From IMG/VR virus record IMGVR_UViG_3300027708_000122, positions 1 through 44,389 of that record: a stretch of 44,389 bases of DNA. One strand, given 5' to 3'. This stretch comes from a virus. The notes beneath the pieces were generated by a model. It did not search any database and had not been told where the DNA came from. It saw nothing but the letters and a program-made list of their open reading frames with translations. The stretch's first letter is position 1, and the number at the start of each line of letters is the position of its first letter. This document shows positions 2,040 through 43,070 of this stretch, piece by piece. A program made the position numbers and the translations under genes.

Positions 2040-2118
2040 GGCAGCCCTTTGAGGGGCTGCCAATGGATGGATGTATAGGCACCACGGGAGTGGTGCTGGG
2101 CAAACGCTCAGCGTTTGC
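2040..2118 (-). repeat. Three-hairpin module, locus 1, directly after the HTH gene
   Basis: Reading the minus strand from the HTH stop codon: hairpin A at 2118-2100 (GCAAACG, loop CTGAG, CGTTTGC), linker CCA, hairpin B at 2096-2079 (GCACCAC, loop TCCC, GTGGTGC), linker beginning CTAT, hairpin C at 2061-2040 (GGCAGCCC, loop CTCAAA, GGGCTGCC) followed by CTTTG. Hairpin C could end transcription, though its T run is short. The same A-CCA-B-CTAT-C plan recurs at 32645-32723 with different but complementary stems. Confidence 0.8.
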
Positions 2119-2574
2119 TTAGCGAGGATTTGTGTAAATCCTTCTGCGCCTAATAGGCGCTGGATCATCATTGTCTTTCAATGCTTGGTCGATGTAGTAG
2201 AACCCTTCATCTGAATCAGGGTCATATCCAACGACGGCTTGTTCGCGTTCCAACATGTCCAACCATGACCGCAGCCGTTGCGATTCATCTATGTTCAACT
2301 TGTCAGGGGTCTGTTCTTTGCGACCATAAAGTCGCAACATACGGGCGGCATAATGCGTGCCGTGTTCATCTCTTACACGCCATGGCAAAGAGTTCCGGTA
2401 GCGGGGTTTGTTCTCGGCCAGTCCATACCGGACCATTGCTCCACTGATACTTGCCCGTGAAACCCTGATCCCGGTTTCTTGTTCATGTCGTGCGACCATC
2501 TCAGCGTGGGTGAGTCCTTCACGCTGCCACCTTTGGAGGGTAGTCTTGTCTGGTACAAGCGTTGGCGGAGCCAT
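2119..2574 (-). CDS. Helix-turn-helix DNA-binding protein
   Basis: 151 residues from ATG 2574 behind AGAAGG. The N-terminal third (KTTLQRWQREGLTHAEMVAR, then RVSRASISGAMVRYG) reads as a winged or simple HTH: a helix, a 'GLTHAEM' turn, and a recognition helix ending SRASISGAM. The middle holds PWRVRDEHGTHYAARMLRLY; the end is basic (RRRR). Proteins of this type are common in actinophages. It is transcribed divergently from the integrase and followed by the three-hairpin module. In a temperate phage without a visible CI-like repressor, it is the best candidate for an immunity or early regulator, but that is inference from position; a recombination directionality role is an alternative. Confidence 0.75.
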   Translation of the reverse strand: MAPPTLVPDKTTLQRWQREGLTHAEMVARHEQETGIRVSRASISGAMVRYGLAENKPRYRNSLPWRVRDEHGTHYAARMLRLYGRKEQTPDKLNIDESQRLRSWLDMLEREQAVVGYDPDSDEGFYYIDQALKDNDDPAPIRRRRIYTNPR

Positions 2575-30564: not shown

Positions 30565-32463
30565 CTATCCAATCTGTCGGAAAAGTTGTTGAACTTCATA
30601 ATCCATAACGTTCACGCTCTGCCGACGACTGATGTCATACCGGGTAGCGAAGTTGTTCTTAATGTGTGACGAGTTGTACGAGGTCATAGCCACGATCCGG
30701 TCCCTACAGGCCAGTTCGGTGAACCAGAACGCCATCACCGTGTCAGTTTTCTGACTCTTGGGAGCGTCTGCGTGCCACGTAACTAACTGCTCGATGAACG
30801 ATTTAGCCATCTCATGGTCCGTGGTACGAGGCAGTTCAACGAGTTGGTTACCGTTTTCCCACCCTTGAAACAGCATCGTGAGGCTCGTAACACCATAATC
30901 AGAGTCCCACTTGGAGGCTCCGGTGAAGTGTTCCCTGAGAACAGCACCACGACCCGCTAGATACTCTTTGACCTCACGGTCCTGAGTGAGCATGGTCTGG
31001 AAAGCGTTCTTTTCAATACGCCACTCGGTAATGTTGTACTTGTCTGTCCAATCACGGATCAGAGCACGAATATCGTCAGGGGTCATCCCTGTCTTATTCC
31101 AAATATCGAGCACGTACCGCTTCTGAGTGCGGATGTCTAGCCCAATACAGCAAGCACCAACATACCCAGCAGGACTAGCAGGGTCCAGACCAGCCATAAC
31201 GAGCAAGCCATCCATGCCCTCTTCCCTGTTACCGGGCATACCACGGGGGATAAGACCGGGGCGACGAGCCATATTCATAGACGCTTGCACAGCGTCAACG
31301 GAGAACAACTCCGTACCAGACACTTGTTGCTGCTGGTACACCCTCGCCCAATGGGAGGGAGACATGCGAGCACGCTTCTTATGGAGAGCAGGCCCATCCC
31401 ACTTCGGGAACAAGCCATCAGCATCAGGTTCCCTGAATGCTCCCTTAGTAATCTCAGGCATGTTCGACTTAGGCCATAAGGTTTCCCACTTCAACGGGTC
31501 ATCATCAGCCTGTAAGACGGCTGGCATAGCCAGATACGTCCATGGGGATTCACCGTCAGGGTAATACTCGGCCTTGCGTAACTCGGAGTACAGGTCACGG
31601 GCTGCGAGACGAGTACCCACGACGAGTAACTTGCCACCAGCACCGATACGGGACAAGACCTCAGTCTGAATCCAGTCGATCTGCTTGGCGTACTCATGAG
31701 CGTTCGTATTGTCCACACAGTCGTCAAGGACGATCAGGTCAGCACGGGCACCATAAATGTGTCCACGTACACCCAGAGCCTCCGCTGTGGGGTCTTTCTC
31801 CCCAGAGTCACGGATATCCCCAGAAACGTAGATACGGTCCTGAGACCACGACTCAGAGTTCTTATCAAACCCACCGGGGGGACCATAAGCGATGATCAGG
31901 TCCTGATACTTGGGATGGGTGAGACGGTTCTTAATGGCGGAAAGCATTTTCCGTGCCATAGCCTGAGTCTTAGAAACGATCAAGATACGAACGTTCGGAT
32001 CAGTTGCAATCCGGTAGGTCACATAGTTGATGGTGATGGAGGTGGTTTTGGAATGTTCTGGGGGCAGGTTAGCGATGATGAGGTCAGGATCAGACTTCTC
32101 ATAGACAATCCCACCCGGCAGCCAAGAAGGATCTCGGCCTTCAAGGACGTCCACGATATTTCCGATATGAGGGAAGACGCGCGCACCCAGATACTTCTCG
32201 GAGAACGCGCCAAACCCGACATCCTCACCCTTCTGGTGGCCGGTCTTTCGGCCCATGCGGATACGGTCAACGGCAACTGAGAACTCGGTGTCCGTTTTCT
32301 TCCACAACTCGTACGTTTTGATGGAGCGTCCAGCGAAATCACATGCTTGCTGGTTCGTGTACCCGTCACCGATCTTCTCCAAGAAGATCCGCTTCGCTTC
32401 CACCACTGAATGTCTCTTGGCATTAGATCGCTCGAACGCCCGTGCGTCTCGCTCCTGTGCCAT
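30565..32463 (-). CDS. terL: Terminase large subunit with N-terminal HTH
   Basis: 632 residues from ATG 32463. An N-terminal HTH-like segment (GYTNQQACDFAGRSIKTYEL, ~35-55) is of the type usually found in small terminase subunits; no separate small subunit gene is seen. The ATPase has LPPEHSKTTS as a divergent Walker A and DLIVLDDCVD as Walker B. The nuclease part has MAGLDPASPAGYVGACCIGL and YGVTSLTMLFQGWENG. It cuts and pumps DNA into the prohead. The frame is open back to an ATG at 32559, whose ribosome site would lie in hairpin H2; I prefer 32463 (GGA at 7 bases). Confidence 0.87.
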   Translation of the reverse strand: MAQERDARAFERSNAKRHSVVEAKRIFLEKIGDGYTNQQACDFAGRSIKTYELWKKTDTEFSVAVDRIRMGRKTGHQKGEDVGFGAFSEKYLGARVFPHIGNIVDVLEGRDPSWLPGGIVYEKSDPDLIIANLPPEHSKTTSITINYVTYRIATDPNVRILIVSKTQAMARKMLSAIKNRLTHPKYQDLIIAYGPPGGFDKNSESWSQDRIYVSGDIRDSGEKDPTAEALGVRGHIYGARADLIVLDDCVDNTNAHEYAKQIDWIQTEVLSRIGAGGKLLVVGTRLAARDLYSELRKAEYYPDGESPWTYLAMPAVLQADDDPLKWETLWPKSNMPEITKGAFREPDADGLFPKWDGPALHKKRARMSPSHWARVYQQQQVSGTELFSVDAVQASMNMARRPGLIPRGMPGNREEGMDGLLVMAGLDPASPAGYVGACCIGLDIRTQKRYVLDIWNKTGMTPDDIRALIRDWTDKYNITEWRIEKNAFQTMLTQDREVKEYLAGRGAVLREHFTGASKWDSDYGVTSLTMLFQGWENGNQLVELPRTTDHEMAKSFIEQLVTWHADAPKSQKTDTVMAFWFTELACRDRIVAMTSYNSSHIKNNFATRYDISRRQSVNVMDYEVQQLFRQIG

Positions 32464-32486
32464 GTTTGAATCCAGACTGCCTATAG

Positions 32487-32803
32487 GCAAACGCTTCGCG
32501 TTTGCTAAGCCATGGCGTCTGTAAGTTAGCCATGGCAGATGAGTTAGGGTCGTTACCATGCACCCTTATAGGGTGCAATCATCCGGGTTTTAACCCGGTT
32601 CATTGGTTAAACCACATGTAGCAAACTTTTTAGTTTGCCTATAAGCAATCGTCTGAGACGATTGCCCAGCACCCCTCTCGGGGTGCCTATCTATTAACTA
32701 TTATGGGCGGCTTAAGGCCGCCCTTTTAATGTATTTATTAGGCAATTCCTTGGGGGAATTGCTGGATAGTGTGAGGGAGCGTTCGGTCGCTTCGCTCCCT
32801 CAC
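32487..32803. repeat. Array of nine consecutive hairpins upstream of the terminase
   Basis: Perfect stems in order: H1 32487-32505 (GCAAACGC, 8 bp), H2 32559-32577 (TGCACCC), H3 32583-32598 (CCGGGTT), H4 32621-32638 (GCAAACT), H5 32645-32665 (GCAATCGTC, 9 bp), H6 32669-32686 (GCACCCC), H7 32705-32723 (GGGCGGC), H8 32742-32762 (GCAATTCC), H9 32770-32803 (about 11 bp, loop 11). H1, H4, H5 and H8 share ends GCAA...TTGC but differ inside, with the partner arm changed to match. H4-CTATAA-H5-CCA-H6-CTAT-H7 repeats the linkers found at 2040-2118. On the minus strand the loops are mostly purine-rich (GAA, GAGA, AAAA). Confidence 0.85.
32705..32729 (+). terminator. Intrinsic terminator-like hairpin H7, plus orientation
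   Basis: GGGCGGC and GCCGCCC (32705-32711, 32717-32723) followed by TTTTAA form a textbook terminator on the plus strand. No plus-strand gene lies upstream of it before position 4049, so its job is not the usual one; it could shield the terminase leader from read-through or be part of the hairpin module. Confidence 0.65.
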
Positions 32804-33064
32804 TTATAGGGAACTAGAGTTTAAAACATCTATCGAAGGTATCGGGCAAAAAATCATCCGAAAGGACTATGTGTAACTGGTGCAAACTAGGACATACATA
32901 CCATCAACCGGGGTCAAGGAGACCGGGGTCAAACAATGGCAACAATGCAAAAAGTCGATAAAAACAATAGAATGGTAGGCCAAAAACTATCCACACTTTG
33001 GAGGTGGTAGACATACACACATATACGCGCGCAAAATTAAAATGCCCCCCGGTCAAGATTGGGT
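32804..33064. repeat. Gene-free AT-richer stretch with direct repeats ACCGGGGTCAA
   Basis: No coding frame is convincing here. ACCGGGGTCAA occurs at 32907-32917 and 32922-32932 (15 bases apart), and CCGGTCAAG near 33050 is a partial copy. On the minus strand each reads TTGACCCCGGT, containing a -35-like TTGACC, so the leftward promoter of the virion operon may be here. The tract 32937-32995 is A-rich. Confidence 0.55.
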
Positions 33065-33185
33065 CGTTTGGGTCCAAACGTTTGGGTCCGAACGATCGGG
33101 AGAGGGCAGACTGGCCGTCAAGTCCACCAATGGAGGCCCATCTTGATCGTCTCACTATGTGAGACACCGTTCCACCATGTGGGAC
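33065..33185. promoter_or_regulatory. Two pairs of dyad-symmetric operator-like sites
   Basis: Pair 1: CGTTTGGGTCCAAACG (33065-33080) and the overlapping CGTTTGGGTCCGAACG (33079-33094), a 14-base tandem of near-palindromes. Pair 2: GTCTCAC-TAT-GTGAGAC (33149-33165) and GTTCCAC-CAT-GTGGGAC (33169-33185), centres 20 bases apart, about two helical turns. Such spacing suits dimers binding the same face of DNA. They lie between the leftward virion operon and the rightward accessory operon. Confidence 0.7.
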
Positions 33186-33527: not shown

Positions 33528-34082
33528 ATGACACGCGAGGAATGGCTCCAACTAGCGGCGCAAGCCCTGACCGATCGGGCAATGTGCGCCCGTGTAAACA
33601 CCGGAACACGTTTCAGCGTCGGCAACCCGGCGCGACCGGGCCGACGTATGGCGCGACTTTGGGACGTTGCCACGGACACCGATGGGCACCGTCAGGTGTT
33701 CATTTCACCCCTGCTAGATGACAAGACGTCAGTGCTTGCCGTGCTTGCTTTCGCTTGCACCCGTGCCCGTTGGGAGCCGACCGGCGAGCGTGTGGCCGGT
33801 GGCCGCTGGCAGGCGTTGCACGGAACGTTTGGTTTCGTTTACACGGGCACCGATTACGCGGTAGTCCCGTCGGACACGTTCACGGTTCGCCTTGCCGAAC
33901 TAGCCGACACTCTGCCCGATTACCCGCATGACGCCACCACGGTACGGGCCACACGGACCCAAACTACCCGCATGATCAAACTCTCTTGCGCTTGCGGCTA
34001 CGTGGTCCGTACGACCCGTACACACATTCTGACGGGCCTCCCGTACTGCCCCAACGGGCACACGCTCACTCAGTCCGTGTGA
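33528..34082 (+). CDS. SprT-like zinc protein lacking the HExxH metal-protease motif
   Basis: 184 residues from ATG 33528 (GGAAGG seven bases upstream). The frame matches the actinophage SprT-like family: MTREEWLQLAAQAL, RFSVGNPARPGRRM, QVFISPLLDD, VLAVLAFACTRARWE, LAELADTLPDYPHD, TQTTRMIKLSCACGYVVRTT and LPYCPNGH, the zinc ribbon. Where the family has VLAVLAHELVHA with the catalytic HELVH, this protein has FACTR (residues 75-79). The two His and the Glu are all lost, while the flanks and the zinc ribbon remain. It is likely a catalytically dead relative that binds DNA or protein. First gene of the rightward operon. Confidence 0.8.
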   Translation: MTREEWLQLAAQALTDRAMCARVNTGTRFSVGNPARPGRRMARLWDVATDTDGHRQVFISPLLDDKTSVLAVLAFACTRARWEPTGERVAGGRWQALHGTFGFVYTGTDYAVVPSDTFTVRLAELADTLPDYPHDATTVRATRTQTTRMIKLSCACGYVVRTTRTHILTGLPYCPNGHTLTQSV

Positions 34083-34098
34083 CTTGCATCGGGCACCG

Positions 34099-34127
34099 TT
34101 TACACGGTGTCCGGTGTTGGCTAAACG
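34099..34127 (+). promoter_or_regulatory. Promoter candidate for the amidoligase gene
   Basis: TTTACA (34099-34104, part of a GTTTACAC motif), exactly 17 bases, then TAAACG (34122-34127). The following leader (GGCCAG...AAACACAACACAAGGAAGG) resembles those before 33528 and 36009, and TAAACGGCCA also occurs at 33434. Moderate match to vegetative sigma boxes. Confidence 0.45.
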
Positions 34128-34162
34128 GCCAGAACCAAACACAACACAAGGAAGGTAAGACC

Positions 34163-35014
34163 ATGACACTACGCACTCTCCCGGCCCTAACTTTCGGGGT
34201 GGAAATCGAAACCGTGAACGCTAGCGAGTCCTCGCTAGTTCGCGCCCTACAGGGCGCCGGACTTATGGCTAATCAGTCCGAACGTCTAGGACGCGGCTAC
34301 ACGCAATGGCAAGTCAAGTACGACGGGAGCCTGACCCCAACGTCTGGCCGTGATCATCACTACAGTGCCGAAATCGTCTCTCCCGTTCTCCGGTGGGGCA
34401 ACCCTGACGATATGCGCCAGATCGAACGGGCGATGAACGCCATTAACAACATCGGCGGGGGCATGGAGGCCCGTGTCAACAAGACGACCGGCCTGCACTG
34501 TCACGTAGGCATCGCGGGGTTCTCCCGTACTGAAATCCTAGGGATTGTGGATGTTTACACGGCATACCAGACCATGATCGAGCGCGAGGTCTTGGCACCG
34601 TCGCGCATTGGGGGCCGTTGGGCTAAGTCGTACGCCTCATGGGACCGGGAGACACGGGCACGCCATGACGAGAGGTTTATCGAGTCGGGCCGGGTTTCCG
34701 ATCGTTACATGACCGTGAACCTCACCCGTGTAAACGACATTGGCACGGTGGAGTTCCGCCAGCGTCAGGGCACGACCAACGCCCGTAAAATCCTGACGTG
34801 GGCCGGTATGTGTGTAAACATGGTGGCGCAGGGGCGCGACGTGGCCAACGGTGGGGCAGTTCTGCTAGGGAGTGACCTAGCCTCATCCCTACGGGCACAG
34901 CGCGTCGATTCCATCCTTGAGGCCATGTTGTCCGGTGAGTTCTCCCTCGCGGGTCTACCGACTCCTACGCCTAGCCTGTCGCAATTGCTCCGCCTGCAAG
35001 GTTTGGAGGGATGA
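34163..35014 (+). CDS. Amidoligase (glutamine-synthetase-fold, Amidoligase_2-like)
   Basis: 283 residues from ATG 34163 after GGAAGG. Family signatures: LTFGVEIET near the N-terminus (acidic metal/ATP-binding pair), SAEIVSPVL (the second acidic strand), GLHCHVGIAG (His motif), and GTVEFRQRQGTTN (Arg motif) near the C-terminus. These enzymes use ATP to join a carboxylate to an amine, forming amide or isopeptide bonds on peptides or small molecules. In the same operon are a class II glutamine amidotransferase and a gamma-glutamylcyclotransferase-like protein, a set known from comparative genomics of amidoligases. The substrate is unknown; cell-wall peptide or protein modification are candidates. 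Confidence 0.85.
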   Translation: MTLRTLPALTFGVEIETVNASESSLVRALQGAGLMANQSERLGRGYTQWQVKYDGSLTPTSGRDHHYSAEIVSPVLRWGNPDDMRQIERAMNAINNIGGGMEARVNKTTGLHCHVGIAGFSRTEILGIVDVYTAYQTMIEREVLAPSRIGGRWAKSYASWDRETRARHDERFIESGRVSDRYMTVNLTRVNDIGTVEFRQRQGTTNARKILTWAGMCVNMVAQGRDVANGGAVLLGSDLASSLRAQRVDSILEAMLSGEFSLAGLPTPTPSLSQLLRLQGLEG

Positions 35015-35018
35015 GGGG

Positions 35019-35168
35019 ATGTCACAACACACGCCACAACATAAGCCCGTGCTATCCTTGCCCTGCTATTGGTGCAACGCTACGGCGTTCTATCAAGCCT
35101 ACGTGGAACGGGAAGGGGTGACGATGCCTCACTGCCGGGACTGTTACCTAGACTCCGGCCACGACTAG
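35019..35168 (+). CDS. 49-residue zinc-ribbon peptide
   Basis: ATG 35019 four bases after the amidoligase stop, with GGAGGG upstream. Sequence MSQHTPQHKPVLSLPCYWCN continues to AYVEREGVTMPHCRDCYLDS. Two CxxC pairs (CYWC, CRDC) about 20 residues apart make a small zinc ribbon. Longer frames upstream overlap the amidoligase and have no ribosome site. It may bind nucleic acid or act as a small partner of the amidoligase. Confidence 0.72.
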   Translation: MSQHTPQHKPVLSLPCYWCNATAFYQAYVEREGVTMPHCRDCYLDSGHD

Positions 35169-35176
35169 CACGGCCA

Positions 35177-35223
35177 GCCATGCCCCGGTGGGCACCGGTG
35201 GGGTTCGACTCCCCACCATGGCA
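35177..35223 (+). ncRNA. tRNA-like structured element with T-arm, lacking D and anticodon arms
   Basis: An outer stem GCCATG / CATGGC (35177-35182, 35217-35222) encloses CCGGT-GGGC-ACCGG and a T-arm-like hairpin GGTGGGG-TTCGACT-CCCCACC. TTCGA with its closing G-C matches the invariant T-loop of tRNA. A complete tRNA cannot be drawn: there is no room for D and anticodon arms. It fills the 86-base gap between two genes. It could be a tRNA mimic, an att-like relic, or a leader structure. Confidence 0.45.
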
Positions 35224-35254
35224 CGCACATATCAACCAACGAAAGGAGCACGTC

Positions 35255-35941
35255 ATGGAGTGTGTAAACACATGCGGGTGCGATGTCGCACCATGCGAGG
35301 GTCAGTATCACGATCAAGACCCGTGTGGGAACTGTCGGGAGTGTTGTAACTGTTTCGACGTGGCACTACTGGCCGTGATAGATCAAGCCCGTACCGGGGT
35401 GACCGGCATAACGTGGACCGATGTCCTCGCGTGCATGATCAATGCAGACTTTGACGCCAACGATATCGCGTGCCTATGGCGTGGGCAGGGCTTGCCGGGG
35501 CAGGTGTTCCACAACTACCGGCGAGGGCTGGGAGCATGTTCGGTCGGATGTTTAAACAATGAGTTCTTCCGTAGTGGTCTTGTTGTTGCCGACAACGTGG
35601 AAGACCTGCCCGAACATGTTCGCGGGTGGTATTGCGAGTGTGGCGACTACCTAGACCCGAACTATCAACCCTCTGAGGGTGAATGCCGATCATGCTGGAA
35701 CGATGGGTATTACGAGGACCGGGACGCGCAACTATGCGAGGACTGTGTAAACCAACGGGACTACCCGGAGTGTGACTGTGGCGATAGCCACGCGGTGGGG
35801 GATGGGACGGCCTGTGCTACGGCTGCCGATGTCCTACCCGCCGAGTTCTGGACGCATATCTCACGTTTAAACATCCCGTGTCAGTTAGTTCTCTGGACTG
35901 AGGACGAAATTGTCGGCGTCGATCAACTCGTCTTGATCTGA
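35255..35941 (+). CDS. Cysteine-rich acidic protein with several putative zinc sites
   Basis: 228 residues from ATG 35255 after GAAAGGAG. About 30 Cys, in pairs and triplets: CVNTCGCDVAPC, CGNCRECCNCF, YCECGDYLDPNY, ECRSCWND, CEDCVNQRDYPECDCGD. The middle has a helical stretch (VLACMINADFDANDIACLWR). This resembles a series of zinc ribbons or knuckles. No enzyme family is recognised. It lies between amidoligase and glutamine amidotransferase and may be a scaffold for, or target of, that pathway. Confidence 0.72.
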   Translation: MECVNTCGCDVAPCEGQYHDQDPCGNCRECCNCFDVALLAVIDQARTGVTGITWTDVLACMINADFDANDIACLWRGQGLPGQVFHNYRRGLGACSVGCLNNEFFRSGLVVADNVEDLPEHVRGWYCECGDYLDPNYQPSEGECRSCWNDGYYEDRDAQLCEDCVNQRDYPECDCGDSHAVGDGTACATAADVLPAEFWTHISRLNIPCQLVLWTEDEIVGVDQLVLI

Positions 35942-35942
35942 T

Positions 35943-35971
35943 TTGACATCATCACAACATGCCACTAGACT
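35943..35971 (+). promoter_or_regulatory. Strong vegetative-type promoter before the amidotransferase gene
   Basis: A perfect -35 box TTGACA (35943-35948), exactly 17 bases, and -10 TAGACT (35966-35971). The expected start near 35978 would begin a leader CCAACACAACAAACGAAAGG like those of the genes at 33528 and 34163. It begins right after the stop of the Cys-rich gene, so it drives the amidotransferase and downstream genes separately. Confidence 0.68.
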
Positions 35972-36008
35972 GGACCCAACACAACAAACGAAAGGACGGT
36001 GAGGCCAC

Positions 36009-37025
36009 ATGTGTGGAATCGCTGGATACATCATTGCAAGGAACGAGCGAGTCGATACGGCTAGGCTCATGCGCGAACTACATAACGGCATCGACCCTCG
36101 CGGGGGTGACGCTACCGGTGCAGCGTGGGTGACCACGGCTGGCAAGATCGAACATCACACGGTGACAGGACGGGCAAAGCAATTCCGCAGTGCCCATCCC
36201 AACGCTGGCGTGGGTGCTGTCATGGCTATCCTGCACACGCGCTATGCCACGCAAGGTAGCGCGGATAACCAACTGAATAATCACCCGATCAAGTCGGGCC
36301 GGTTCATCGGCGTGCATAACGGGCACATATCGAACGACTCCGAAATCTTTGCCACCGTACCGTTTAAACGACACGGGCAGGTTGATTCCGAGTCGATCAT
36401 CGCGCTCATCCGTCACGCCCACATGAAGGGCACTCACCCGGCTAAGGAACTGGAACGGCTGGACGGTAGGGCCGCAGTCGCATGGTTCGACACGCAAGCC
36501 AAACACCCCGTCCTGCACCTAGCGCGGGGCAGTGCATCACCACTTATCGTGGCGATGACTGAGAAGGGCAGCACCGTGTTCGCCAGCACTGAGATGGCCT
36601 TGCTACAGGCTATGAAGGCCGTTGGCATGATCCCGTTCACCCTCTACACCGTGGGCGAGGGAACATATCTCAAGTTCACACGGACCCGACTAGTGGAGAC
36701 GACTACGTTTACACTACCTAAGCGTGTCCACTTTGGTTATGCTCCCGATCAAGGCACGGGCAAGCGCAAGCCTGCCGTGGGCAAGTCTGTGGTCAAGGCT
36801 AAGGCCGTCAAGGTTAAGACTCCGGTCAAGGCGTATGACCCTAACGTTTACACGTCAGTGTGGGATGAGGTCGAACCTGCACCTGCATCGCTACATGATG
36901 TGAGCATGGACATGGGTCCGTATGGGAATGATCCCGATCAGTGGCCCGACTGGACGTGGGACAACGACGACATGCTGCACATGTCACTCAAGAACTCAAA
37001 CCGAACCCGAGCATGGGAGTTTTAA
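36009..37025 (+). CDS. Class II (Ntn-type) glutamine amidotransferase
   Basis: 338 residues. Cys2, exposed after removal of Met1, is the N-terminal nucleophile (MCGIAGYI). Other class II signatures: ILHTRYATQGSADNQLNNHP (substrate Arg and His-Pro), GVHNGHISND (oxyanion Asn-Gly), and QVDSESIIALI (Asp). It releases ammonia from glutamine for transfer. No sugar-isomerase, phosphoribosyl or synthetase domain follows; the last ~100 residues are a Lys/Val-rich linker (KSVVKAKAVKVKTPVKAYDP) and an acidic, Trp-rich tail. Without an acceptor domain it must work with a partner, most plausibly the amidoligase upstream. Confidence 0.88.
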   Translation: MCGIAGYIIARNERVDTARLMRELHNGIDPRGGDATGAAWVTTAGKIEHHTVTGRAKQFRSAHPNAGVGAVMAILHTRYATQGSADNQLNNHPIKSGRFIGVHNGHISNDSEIFATVPFKRHGQVDSESIIALIRHAHMKGTHPAKELERLDGRAAVAWFDTQAKHPVLHLARGSASPLIVAMTEKGSTVFASTEMALLQAMKAVGMIPFTLYTVGEGTYLKFTRTRLVETTTFTLPKRVHFGYAPDQGTGKRKPAVGKSVVKAKAVKVKTPVKAYDPNVYTSVWDEVEPAPASLHDVSMDMGPYGNDPDQWPDWTWDNDDMLHMSLKNSNRTRAWEF

Positions 37026-37026
37026 G

Positions 37027-37290
37027 ATGACACTATTCACTCAACCAACAGACTCTGAGACACGTATTTCTATCGAGCCGGGGGAGGTTGCCTACTTGAT
37101 CGCTGACCTCGCGCTGGCGATGAGTCGGGGAGAGCAGATATATATCTCTGTCCGTACCGAGTCGTACCAGTGGCGTAATGGCGCGGCAGGTGGCTTGATC
37201 GAAGTTTACACACCGAACCACAGGTCCCCCGGTGGGGGACGTGAGGCTACGTTCATCCGACAGTCTATTGAGTTAGGCGAAGGAGTTTAA
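37027..37290 (+). CDS. 87-residue small beta protein
   Basis: ATG 37027 directly follows the amidotransferase stop (TAAG ATG), with GGGAG seven bases upstream. Mixed acidic and beta sequence (ETRISIEPGEVAYLIADLAL, GEQIYISVRTESYQWRNGA, EVYTPNHRSPGGGREATFI). The start-proximal part looks like a small alpha/beta fold. Unrecognised; likely coexpressed with the amidotransferase. Confidence 0.65.
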   Translation: MTLFTQPTDSETRISIEPGEVAYLIADLALAMSRGEQIYISVRTESYQWRNGAAGGLIEVYTPNHRSPGGGREATFIRQSIELGEGV

Positions 37291-37292
37291 AC

Positions 37293-37589
37293 ATGGCCAC
37301 ACTAACGCGAGAAGAAGCCACCGCTGACGCCATGCGCCATGCCCAGAGTTGGACGCGAGTCAAGTCTGGCTCATACATCTGGCTGGACCGTGGGCTGAAC
37401 GCGACGTTCAGCATTGAACGTGTTGAAACATACCCGGTCAGGCGTGTCCGTGGTCACCATGTGTGGGTGGGCTGGGATCACCGTTCAGGTGAGCCGGTCA
37501 AGGTGACGGGTGACTTTCTGCCAACGTTTGAACGCGCTCGTTACATGGTTGCCTACTACTACCTACAGTCCATCACACAGGAGGTTTAA
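37293..37589 (+). CDS. 98-residue basic, aromatic protein
   Basis: GGAG-TTTAAAC-ATG marks the start, two bases after the previous stop. The protein is basic with many Trp/Tyr (SGSYIWLDRGLNATFSIERV, VRRVRGHHVWVGWDHRSGEP, ERARYMVAYYYLQSI). It looks like a small beta-barrel followed by a helix. No family is recognised. Confidence 0.65.
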   Translation: MATLTREEATADAMRHAQSWTRVKSGSYIWLDRGLNATFSIERVETYPVRRVRGHHVWVGWDHRSGEPVKVTGDFLPTFERARYMVAYYYLQSITQEV

Positions 37590-37591
37590 AC

Positions 37592-37867
37592 ATGCCGAAG
37601 AATGGTTTCGATGTCATGCGTGAAGCACAACTGTCAGTGCGTGCCATTGGCGAGAACAACGGGGGAGGATGGGCTATGCAACTGTCACCCGGTGACCCCG
37701 AAGAATGGGTTCAGCGTGCCGACAAGTGTGCAGACAACCTACGCACTCTGCTAGGGCACCATATCAAGTTGACACAACTCATCACCGATGCAATGATGGA
37801 CCTACACAGGGCACGACGGTGGTTAGAAATGTGCGAAGAAGAGGACGGTGCAAATTGTGACGACTGA
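37592..37867 (+). CDS. 91-residue helical protein
   Basis: GGAGG-TTTAAAC-ATG at the start, like the previous gene. Mainly helical, acidic C-terminus (WVQRADKCADNLRTLLGHHI, LITDAMMDLHRARRWLEMCE). The stop overlaps the next gene. Unrecognised. Confidence 0.62.
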   Translation: MPKNGFDVMREAQLSVRAIGENNGGGWAMQLSPGDPEEWVQRADKCADNLRTLLGHHIKLTQLITDAMMDLHRARRWLEMCEEEDGANCDD

Positions 37868-38141
37868 AGATTACGTCGAATGGAAACTAGCGTTCCACGG
37901 GGGTGGCACTTACCACGGTGTCACTCCCGAACGACTACTACGCAACCTAAGCAAGCGACAGTTCGACGAAGAGGACGCGAAGAACATTAAGGCCGCGCTC
38001 GCATGGCGAGCATGGGTGTGGTCCGAAGTGTTGCTCGATGTAAACATGCCAGACCTAGAGTTCTTGATCGCTTACGCGGCCACTGGCACCGCAGACCTAA
38101 GCGCATACAGTGAAGGGAGAGACGAATGGCTGACGTTTTAA
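37857..38141 (+). CDS. 94-residue helical protein
   Basis: GTG 37857 chosen, 11 bases after GAGGA; GTG 37848 in the same frame is the alternative. The sequence MTTEDYVEWKLAFHGGGTYH, ERLLRNLSKRQFDEEDAKNI and LEFLIAYAATGTADLS suggests a compact helical fold. It overlaps the previous gene by 11 bases and the next by 16, so these small genes are translated as a block with the gamma-glutamylcyclotransferase-like gene. Confidence 0.58.
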   Translation: MTTEDYVEWKLAFHGGGTYHGVTPERLLRNLSKRQFDEEDAKNIKAALAWRAWVWSEVLLDVNMPDLEFLIAYAATGTADLSAYSEGRDEWLTF

Positions 38142-38551
38142 CACGCGATGACCTGAACCACCTACTGAACTCATCACCTACCCCGGTGGCGTTCTTTGTG
38201 TACGGCACGTTGCGACCGGGGCAGAGCAACTCTGGCTACTGGTCAGTGGAGTCTCACGTTAAGGGTTCTGTCTATGGCTACGGCTTATACGGCAGGCCCG
38301 GTCACGCCTCATACCCGTGGATGGTGGACACCATGTACTCGGAGGTCAAGGGTGATCTGGTGTGGGTGAAACCTGATGCTCGTATGCACAGCATAGTGAG
38401 CATGGAAGAGAACGCCGGTTACAAAGCACGCATCATCCGCGTTTACACGGAGACGATGGACGAACCTATCCCAGCGATTGCGTTCATCTACCCACATGTT
38501 CCGTTGGGTACGGAACAAATCACCTCAGGTGATTGGACTATTCCTAACTAG
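38126..38551 (+). CDS. Gamma-glutamylcyclotransferase-like (GGCT / AIG2) protein
   Basis: 141 residues. The family's glycine motif is clear: FFVYGTLRPGQSNSGYW (residues ~22-38), followed by strands VKGSVYGYGLYG and VKGDLVWVKPDA, and IVSMEENAGYKARIIRVYTE with the conserved acidic/Tyr region (E near residue 93). These small beta-barrel enzymes cyclise gamma-glutamyl amines to release 5-oxoproline and a free amine. In operons with an amidoligase and a class II amidotransferase such proteins are thought to trim or reverse the amide bonds formed. The start overlaps the previous gene. Confidence 0.85.
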   Translation: MADVLTRDDLNHLLNSSPTPVAFFVYGTLRPGQSNSGYWSVESHVKGSVYGYGLYGRPGHASYPWMVDTMYSEVKGDLVWVKPDARMHSIVSMEENAGYKARIIRVYTETMDEPIPAIAFIYPHVPLGTEQITSGDWTIPN

Positions 38552-42057: not shown

Positions 42058-42236
42058 GCTACGTCAGCCGTTGCATACAACTGGACCTCAGAGCCACGCT
42101 GCTCAGCGCCAACCTTCGGATTGTTTGTACCGAATATCGTCAACGCTGCACTCACAAACGATTGCACTTCTTCCAACGTGGTGAACTCGTTCAAAGGGAT
42201 CGACACCCGCTGCACAACTGTTACTTCGCTACTCAT
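42054..42236 (-). CDS. 60-residue small protein between primase and nucleotide-enzyme genes
   Basis: MSSEVTVVQRVSIPLNEFTT and EEVQSFVSAALTIFGTNNPK suggest a beta strand, helix, beta small fold. It overlaps both neighbours by four bases (ATGA), indicating coupling. No known family. Confidence 0.62.
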   Translation of the reverse strand: MSSEVTVVQRVSIPLNEFTTLEEVQSFVSAALTIFGTNNPKVGAEQRGSEVQLYATADVA

Positions 42237-42865
42237 AGCCCAACCTTCTTTCGTAGACCCTCAGCACCGTGCATGAGGATGTAGTCGTTTACATCCATGC
42301 CATCGGGCATGGACACTGGTACTGCTGTTTCAATCTCTGATGCGATCCGCTTACCCCACTCACGACCCGGTGAGTCTCCATCACACAACAAGAACACACG
42401 GTCGTAGTCTTGAAATGCCCTGTGATAGAACGGTTTCCAAGCGTTAGCCCCCGGCACTCCCACGGATGGGAGAACCTGTGATGCGACGATGGTGTCCATC
42501 TCGCCCTCTGTGATAGCGATGATGGGGGAGTCCTCACCAAACGCTGACACGTTAAACAGGTGACCCGTTGCCCCTGTGCGTGACATGTACTTCGGGCCAT
42601 CGTCCATACCCAACGTGCGGAACCTAATGTCAATGACACCAGCCGGTGTGACGTAAGGGATTGACAACCTGTTTACATACTGCTCATGCCCCAGAACCGG
42701 CTCTGCCACGTAGCCGAGGCGGAACGTAGCGGCCACCGTTACGTCGATCCCGCGACCCGCCAGATACGCCAGTGCCTCTGGTGCTTCCATGAGTGCTGTT
42801 TGATAGGTGAACGTTGCTTGCTCCAACGATTCCCTCAGCGATAGCGATAGCACGTTTAAACTCAA
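42233..42865 (-). CDS. DNA primase, Toprim catalytic part
   Basis: About 210 residues from TTG 42865; GTG 42853, spaced 12 bases from GAGGGGG and touching GTTTAAAC, is an equally good start. It has the primase core LAYLAGRGIDVTVAATFRLG, the substrate strand YVTPAGVIDIRFRTLGMDDG, the Toprim IIAITEGEMDTIVASQ (catalytic Glu) and VFLLCDGDSPGREWGKRI (DxD). It makes RNA primers together with the zinc part encoded in the overlapping upstream frame. The 182-base overlap with that gene is far longer than needed for coupling and suggests frameshifting or a split of a single ancestral gene. Confidence 0.82.
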   Translation of the reverse strand: MSLNVLSLSLRESLEQATFTYQTALMEAPEALAYLAGRGIDVTVAATFRLGYVAEPVLGHEQYVNRLSIPYVTPAGVIDIRFRTLGMDDGPKYMSRTGATGHLFNVSAFGEDSPIIAITEGEMDTIVASQVLPSVGVPGANAWKPFYHRAFQDYDRVFLLCDGDSPGREWGKRIASEIETAVPVSMPDGMDVNDYILMHGAEGLRKKVGL

Positions 42866-43070
42866 CCCCCTCGTAGTGCATGATTACTGCTAGTGCGTCA
42901 CCCTTAAACCCACATGCGAGGCAAGCGACGTAGCCTAGTGCGGAGTTCGCTCGACAGGATGCGCGTGACTCTCCATGTATGTGACAACGCACGCTCTGCC
43001 AACGCTCTAGGTCTGCTGGTAGTTGCCAGCCGTAGTGCTCCAGCACGGGCCAGAGTGGAACCGATGTCAT
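42684..43070 (-). CDS. DNA primase, CHC2 zinc-binding part
   Basis: 128 residues. WQSVRCHIHGESRAS and YVACLACGFKGDALAVIM provide C29, H32, C50 and C53, the CHC2 zinc site that recognises template DNA. HYEGVEFKRAIAIAEGIVGA closes the usual domain at about residue 85. The last ~43 residues (TRGTGVSGGSRDRRNGGRYV) are Gly/Arg-rich and lie where the Toprim frame is clearly coding, so they may be a readout of the wrong frame, with the true product continuing by a +1 shift into the Toprim gene. Confidence 0.78.
   Translation of the reverse strand: MTSVPLWPVLEHYGWQLPADLERWQSVRCHIHGESRASCRANSALGYVACLACGFKGDALAVIMHYEGVEFKRAIAIAEGIVGASNVHLSNSTHGSTRGTGVSGGSRDRRNGGRYVPPRLRGRAGSGA

Follow-up and report, generated by a model that had tools for sequence, protein, structure and literature searches.

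Why a phage genome should carry a dense run of hairpins directly in front of its terminase gene is the question raised by positions 32487-32803 (317 bp) of the window, i.e., the whole 44,389-nucleotide stretch of viral DNA analysed here, which constitutes one IMG/VR record. The two record ends share a 152-bp overlap with a single mismatch, and near-identical sister contigs span their join, so that the record is most simply regarded as a complete genome, about 44.2 kb long and closed into a circle. On account of genes for an integrase, a repressor, a DnaB-like helicase, a split primase, a RusA-like resolvase, a RecB-type exonuclease and a sigma-K-like factor, the phage was marked as temperate with ordinary replication genes; a rolling-circle initiator was not found among the window proteins tested. 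The primase is encoded in two overlapping reading frames, a zinc-ribbon part (42684-43070) and a Toprim part (42233-42865). An amidoligase, a class II glutamine amidotransferase and a gamma-glutamyl-cyclotransferase-like protein, encoded early and rightward (33986-38551), possibly form a host-takeover or peptide-modifying set. The hairpins sit in the non-coding interval between divergent operons, a long leftward structural operon headed by terL and rightward genes that start near 33529. If terL were read from the more distant start at 32559, the reading frame would run into the first hairpins; alignments with homologues, however, begin at about 32463, and the array edge lies 24 nt upstream of this likely start. 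The principal features outside the array are:

30565-32463, minus strand: terL, terminase large subunit (phrog_38)
32998-33058, minus strand: predicted packaging-terminus motif TTGACCGGGGGGCATTTTAA plus GT-rich tail (nhmmer E 6.7e-5)
2040-2160, minus strand: array 2, a second mini-array behind the repressor gene (2119-2574)

With a fixed rule (perfect stem of at least 7 bp, loop of at most 12 nt), an inverted-repeat scan in which both strands were read yielded ten non-overlapping perfect hairpins with stems of 7-11 bp in 32487-32803. The preliminary description had listed nine distinct perfect stems, all of which exist there, while the rule counts ten. Its four stems with common GCAA...TTGC ends were recovered at 32487, 32621, 32645 and 32742, whereas its wording "almost no spacer" slightly overstates the packing, given gaps of about 3 to 22 nt. 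Of the minus-strand loops that it named, GAA, GAGA and AAAA are present and TAAA arises when the inner TA pair of 32583-32598 is open. The individual hairpins are as follows:

Hairpin 1, 32487-32505, minus strand: GCAAACGC-GAA-GCGTTTGC with a cGAAg loop, then CTATAGG
Hairpin 2, 32509-32536: direct and inverted repeat AGCCATGGC / GCCATGGC, 12-nt loop
Hairpin 3, 32559-32577: TGCACCCT/AGGGTGCA, at a site matching the -120 hairpin of aquatic relatives
Hairpin 4, 32583-32598: CCGGGTT/AACCCGG, overlapped by an alternative TTTAACC/GGTTAAA (32589-32611)
Hairpin 5, 32621-32638: GCAAACT/AGTTTGC
Hairpin 6, 32645-32665: GCAATCGTCT/AGACGATTGC, opening the module common to array 2
Hairpin 7, 32669-32686: GCACCCC/GGGGTGC, minus-strand loop GAGA, second part of the module common to array 2
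Hairpin 8, 32705-32723, plus strand: GGGCGGC/GCCGCCC, then TTTT; the sole array hairpin with an immediate T run
Hairpin 9, 32742-32762: GCAATTCC/GGAATTGC, resembling the GCAATTCCCC/GGGGAATTGC hairpin of relative L020
Hairpin 10, 32771-32803: 11-bp stem GTGAGGGAGCG/CGCTCCCTCAC, then TTATAGG on the plus strand

Such a density is not matched by chance or elsewhere in the genome. Dinucleotide shuffles of the interval (n = 1000) never gave more than two hairpins, and 2164 other segments of the same genome held 0.47 on average and six at most, the maximum being array 2, the sole other dense place. Folded as a single strand, the array reached z values against shuffles of -13.7 (DNA, minus strand), -11.5 (RNA, minus strand) and -12.4 (RNA, plus strand). 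Its two borders are flanked by CCTATAGG and TTATAGGG, and TATAGG/CCTATA words cluster beside hairpins at window positions 32480, 32567, 32638, 32805 and 2074. The minus strand of array 2 (2118-2040) is a copy of the plus-strand module 32645-32727, with 86% identity over 47 bases and a fixed order of parts: a GCAA..TTGC hairpin, CCA, a GCACC..GGTGC hairpin, CTAT, about 13 nt and a terminator-like hairpin. Differences in the module stems fall on both arms and are thus compensatory, which indicates that pairing was kept since the duplication. Beside the integrase gene, at 2680-2760, a tRNA-3'-end-like sequence GGTTCAAGTCCCCC (minus strand) and a hairpin with an 11-bp stem, CACAACATGCA/TGCATGTTGTG, mark a candidate attP or operator.

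Among isolated phages, the Streptomyces Beephvirinae are closest in terL, with about 45% identity. Near-DNA matches were absent from the phage records; profile searches led to many uncultured relatives and also to Streptomyces prophages. Soil relatives whose sequence reaches far enough upstream mostly hold 6-12 hairpins per 350 nt in front of terL, compared with means mostly below 1.5 per 350 nt in coding controls, and arrays are nearly universal in this group. Aquatic relatives mostly have 1-5 hairpins upstream of terL, and Beephvirinae 2-3 between genome end and terL. Among diverged sisters the cluster ranges from 2-5 hairpins to about 28, the latter in L009, where an RHH-type gene intervenes between array and terL. 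Two near-identical sister contigs searched for the array returned the array-2 copy alone, so that the place upstream of terL is apparently not covered in them. The hairpin cluster is real, it is family-wide and it is located in the interval between packaging terminus and terL. Since relatives keep such clusters, the earlier view of a dedicated feature and no stray terminator is borne out.

Where the terminus lies could be derived from isolated relatives, whose deposited ends were taken as the edges of their direct terminal repeats (DTRs). In seven Beephvirinae with DTRs of 253-276 bp (7/7 isolates analysed), GACCC..GGGTTGTTAA precedes by exactly 23 nt the right DTR edge, which falls between GAGTG and AGTCCC. 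The deposited ends of phage Abafar differ, yet the motif is present there and is accompanied by GAGTGAGTCCC at equal spacing. A weight matrix built from the Beephvirinae isolates and the soil arrays scored highest upstream of terL in almost all of the roughly 100 uncultured relatives. Among the soil copies of the motif, a conserved GGTCTCC-type loop is found 23-25 nt after TTAA in 31/44, i.e., at the predicted cut, and forms the apex of a stem that is variable in sequence but paired.

In the window, the ungapped matrix gave no match near terL, while a gapped nhmmer profile, made from the motif and adjoining flank of aquatic relatives, found 33058-32998 as the best and only significant match in the genome. 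This copy is located at -535 to -595 from terL, in the place and on the strand expected, 195 bp from the array; it is diverged by a 2-nt insertion, and the GT-rich tail supplies part of its score. The match predicts a genome end at about 33013-33014, 23 nt after TTAA, and would place the array some 210-525 bp inside this predicted end, between the end and terL. First guesses for the motif, at 32583-32598 and at TGACCCCGG repeats in 32907-32932, were dropped since 33058-32998 scores better. Tandem near-palindromes, CGTTTGGGTCCAAAC / CGTTTGGGTCCGAAC, occupy 33064-33095 just upstream of the predicted motif and within the predicted terminal repeat. With regard to the packaging site proposed earlier, the array does adjoin a predicted terminus whose motif is tied to the DTR edges of seven isolates, albeit with a diverged copy 195 bp off; the predicted cut, however, falls outside the array, which matches no known RNA or packaging family.

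Across 34 non-redundant soil relatives, hairpins are densest between -500 and +250 relative to the motif, with 0.9-2.4 per 100 nt against a background of about 0.3. In aquatic relatives the peak is found at +200 to +300, near the +250 to +570 that holds almost all hairpins of the window, in which the two-sided array of the soil type is not seen.

Loop composition bears on the nature of the folding strand. The loop-closing pair is C-G in 394 and G-C in 56 cases in soil arrays (control hairpins, 224 vs. 175) and C-G in 61 and G-C in 7 cases in aquatic leaders (control, 18 vs. 18), an excess over control hairpins which implies that a single-stranded fold matters. On the terL-sense strand of soil arrays, GNA outnumber TNC triloops (38 vs. 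20) and GNNA outnumber TNNC tetraloops (27 vs. 7), so that GNA/GNNA loops total 65 on this strand and 27 on its complement, which fits the earlier proposal that the minus strand, perhaps as single-stranded DNA, is the working form. Loops of the cGNAg and cGNNAg type are stable in DNA. GNRA loops number just 10 in the soil arrays and UUCG is lacking. In Streptomyces telomeres, a sheared G:A pair closes the GCA loops (PMC4513846). G.T and A.C pairs are about equally frequent in stems of the family (77 vs. 61), as compared with 52 vs. 12 in a tRNA positive control tested in a similar way, and RNA folding energy gave no sense-strand gain beyond coding controls. Taken together, C-G closure, GNA/GNNA loops, the balance of G.T and A.C and the missing gain in RNA energy make us lean to DNA rather than RNA. 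Each of these signals is averaged over the family; taken by itself, the window is too small a sample for a decision, with GNA or GNNA loops in two hairpins only, too few to judge telomere-type loops, and with likewise too few mismatched pairs (G.T = 3, A.C = 0).

Ranking the explanations by likelihood, we place first, tentatively and with somewhat less than even confidence, that the hairpins fold as single-stranded DNA in genome-end processing. The array would then represent an expanded version of a cis-acting hairpin cluster kept by the virus family around its packaging terminus. Terminase would cut concatemers 23 nt past GACCC..GGGTTGTTAA, in the window at about 33013, leaving the hairpins just inside the genome end, between the end and terL. 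They would take up their fold in DNA, chiefly in the terL-sense strand, once the end region became single-stranded through resection, strand displacement or the fill-in that may give each genome its terminal repeat, and the folded hairpins would block or position a polymerase, a nuclease or terminase. Analogous roles of hairpins may be seen in the T7 concatemer junction and in Streptomyces telomeres.

Several observations speak against this explanation. The window array occupies the terL side alone, whereas soil arrays are centred on the motif. The two clusters may therefore not share one function and may represent distinct features, one surrounding the motif (soil phages) and one lying between it and terL (window). 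Furthermore, virulent Beephvirinae package well with just 2-3 hairpins at this place, array 2 is found downstream of the repressor gene and a long way from the terminus, and the phage encodes DnaB, primase and RusA-like proteins and no rolling-circle initiator among those tested. A more far-reaching version, which we regard as rather unlikely, holds that telomere-like DNA hairpin arrays surround the terminase cut site, that in temperate soil members the cut coincides with the apex of a conserved hairpin and that folded, partly single-stranded DNA is the substrate from which packaging ends are formed.

Comparison with described systems gives partial likenesses. With the DTR region of the Beephvirinae (cluster BF) the window has in common a related terL (about 45%), the operon layout, an upstream terminus motif and hairpins between end and terL, whereas the Beephvirinae are virulent, lack a dense array and have an intact motif in place of the diverged window copy. 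Temperate soil and Streptomyces relatives (L009, L102, L103, L108-L168) resemble it in a site upstream of a related terL, in consecutive perfect hairpins and in C-G-closed loops, but their arrays are motif-centred, with up to about 28 hairpins. T7, a DTR phage, has a hairpin near its end, at the concatemer junction, with a proposed part in end making; it is a single hairpin as opposed to about ten in the window. Streptomyces telomeres (Tap/Tpg) feature tightly packed palindromes at the DNA end, GCA-loop hairpins with sheared G:A in 3' overhangs (PMC4513846), whereas the window array has other sequences and is placed inside a circularly closed record.

After end processing, the next most likely explanation, possible though on balance unlikely, is a structured 5' leader of the terL/late-operon mRNA, in which RNA hairpins control translation, stability or termination. 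The array stops 24 nt short of the terL start and has the right orientation, and TATAGG follows hairpins directly on their 3' side in leaders of several relatives (7 observed vs. 0.5 expected). Aquatic relatives, furthermore, have a conserved leader hairpin with a covarying stem at about -120, upstream of an RNA-like CCTAACC..GGTTAGG element (about -100 to -60). The latter belongs to a conserved structured element, CCCTAACCTTCGG..GGTTAGG, at about -120 to -40 from terL in L038-L097, which is without an Rfam match and possibly constitutes an undescribed RNA leader motif; its profile found no match in the window. The family as a whole shows neither the G-U excess nor the sense-strand stability gain of a structured RNA, in L009 the RHH-type gene separates array from terL, and soil arrays extend across the predicted cut site, all of which disfavours a leader. 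Rfam searches (GOLLD, ROOL and others) gave nothing above gathering score at the array places, and sub-threshold matches (MicX etc.) were taken as chance. Ornate phage RNAs of the GOLLD/ROOL type are likewise large, hairpin-rich non-coding phage regions (PMC12286853), whereas the array is located away from tRNA islands and lacks an RNA-type wobble signal.

It appears improbable that the hairpins act as a series of transcription terminators or insulators separating the divergent early and late operons. In favour of this, hairpin 8 resembles a terminator on the plus strand, the common module closes with a terminator-like hairpin in both arrays, and T-tails can be missing from actinobacterial terminators. 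Tested hairpin by hairpin for intrinsic terminators, only hairpin 8 passed on the plus strand, with hairpin 7 added under a lax rule; an immediate T run follows one array hairpin, T-rich tails follow 4/95 aquatic leader hairpins, and because the flanking operons diverge there is little to stop at the array.

Improbable as well, and ranked behind terminators, is the absence of any selected function, in which case template switching would create and perfect palindromes in a non-coding segment that evolves fast. Sequence turnover is indeed fast and a module was copied within the window. In hairpins retained across aligned arrays, 439 double Watson-Crick changes far exceed 80 G.T or A.C intermediates and 131 other changes, counted over pairs of related sequences, such that events are not independent. 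The excess indicates that pairing is kept; quasi-palindrome repair from a template could also yield double changes, but would leave loop preferences and fixed place unexplained. C-G closing bias, GNA/GNNA loops, constant position and near-universality in soil relatives require selection. That the hairpins are promoters for a virion RNA polymerase in the style of coliphage N4, whose promoters consist of a small hairpin with a sheared G:A pair closing its three-base loop (PMC4496689), is very improbable in spite of this likeness of form and of an Abafar capsid annotated as N4-type, as stem sequences are not conserved and no RNA polymerase was found, a 1897-aa protein lacking such Pfam or PDB matches and a PF00940 search being silent, as was its control search.

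In the open-licence literature we found neither hairpin arrays in bacteriophage nor work joining the telomere and terminase themes, and we could find no described system in which dense hairpin arrays are centred on the cut site of a terminase. Little is understood so far of how DTR phages come to duplicate the terminal repeat when their DNA is packaged. A motif tied to an exact genome end, present in about 100 relatives and often bracketed by arrays, offers a concrete site and structure for this process, and one that can be tested in culturable Streptomyces prophages. On the sequence comparisons presented here, the hairpin clusters appear to belong to the site at which the DNA of this virus family is cut into genome lengths, which suggests a role for them in the making of genome ends.
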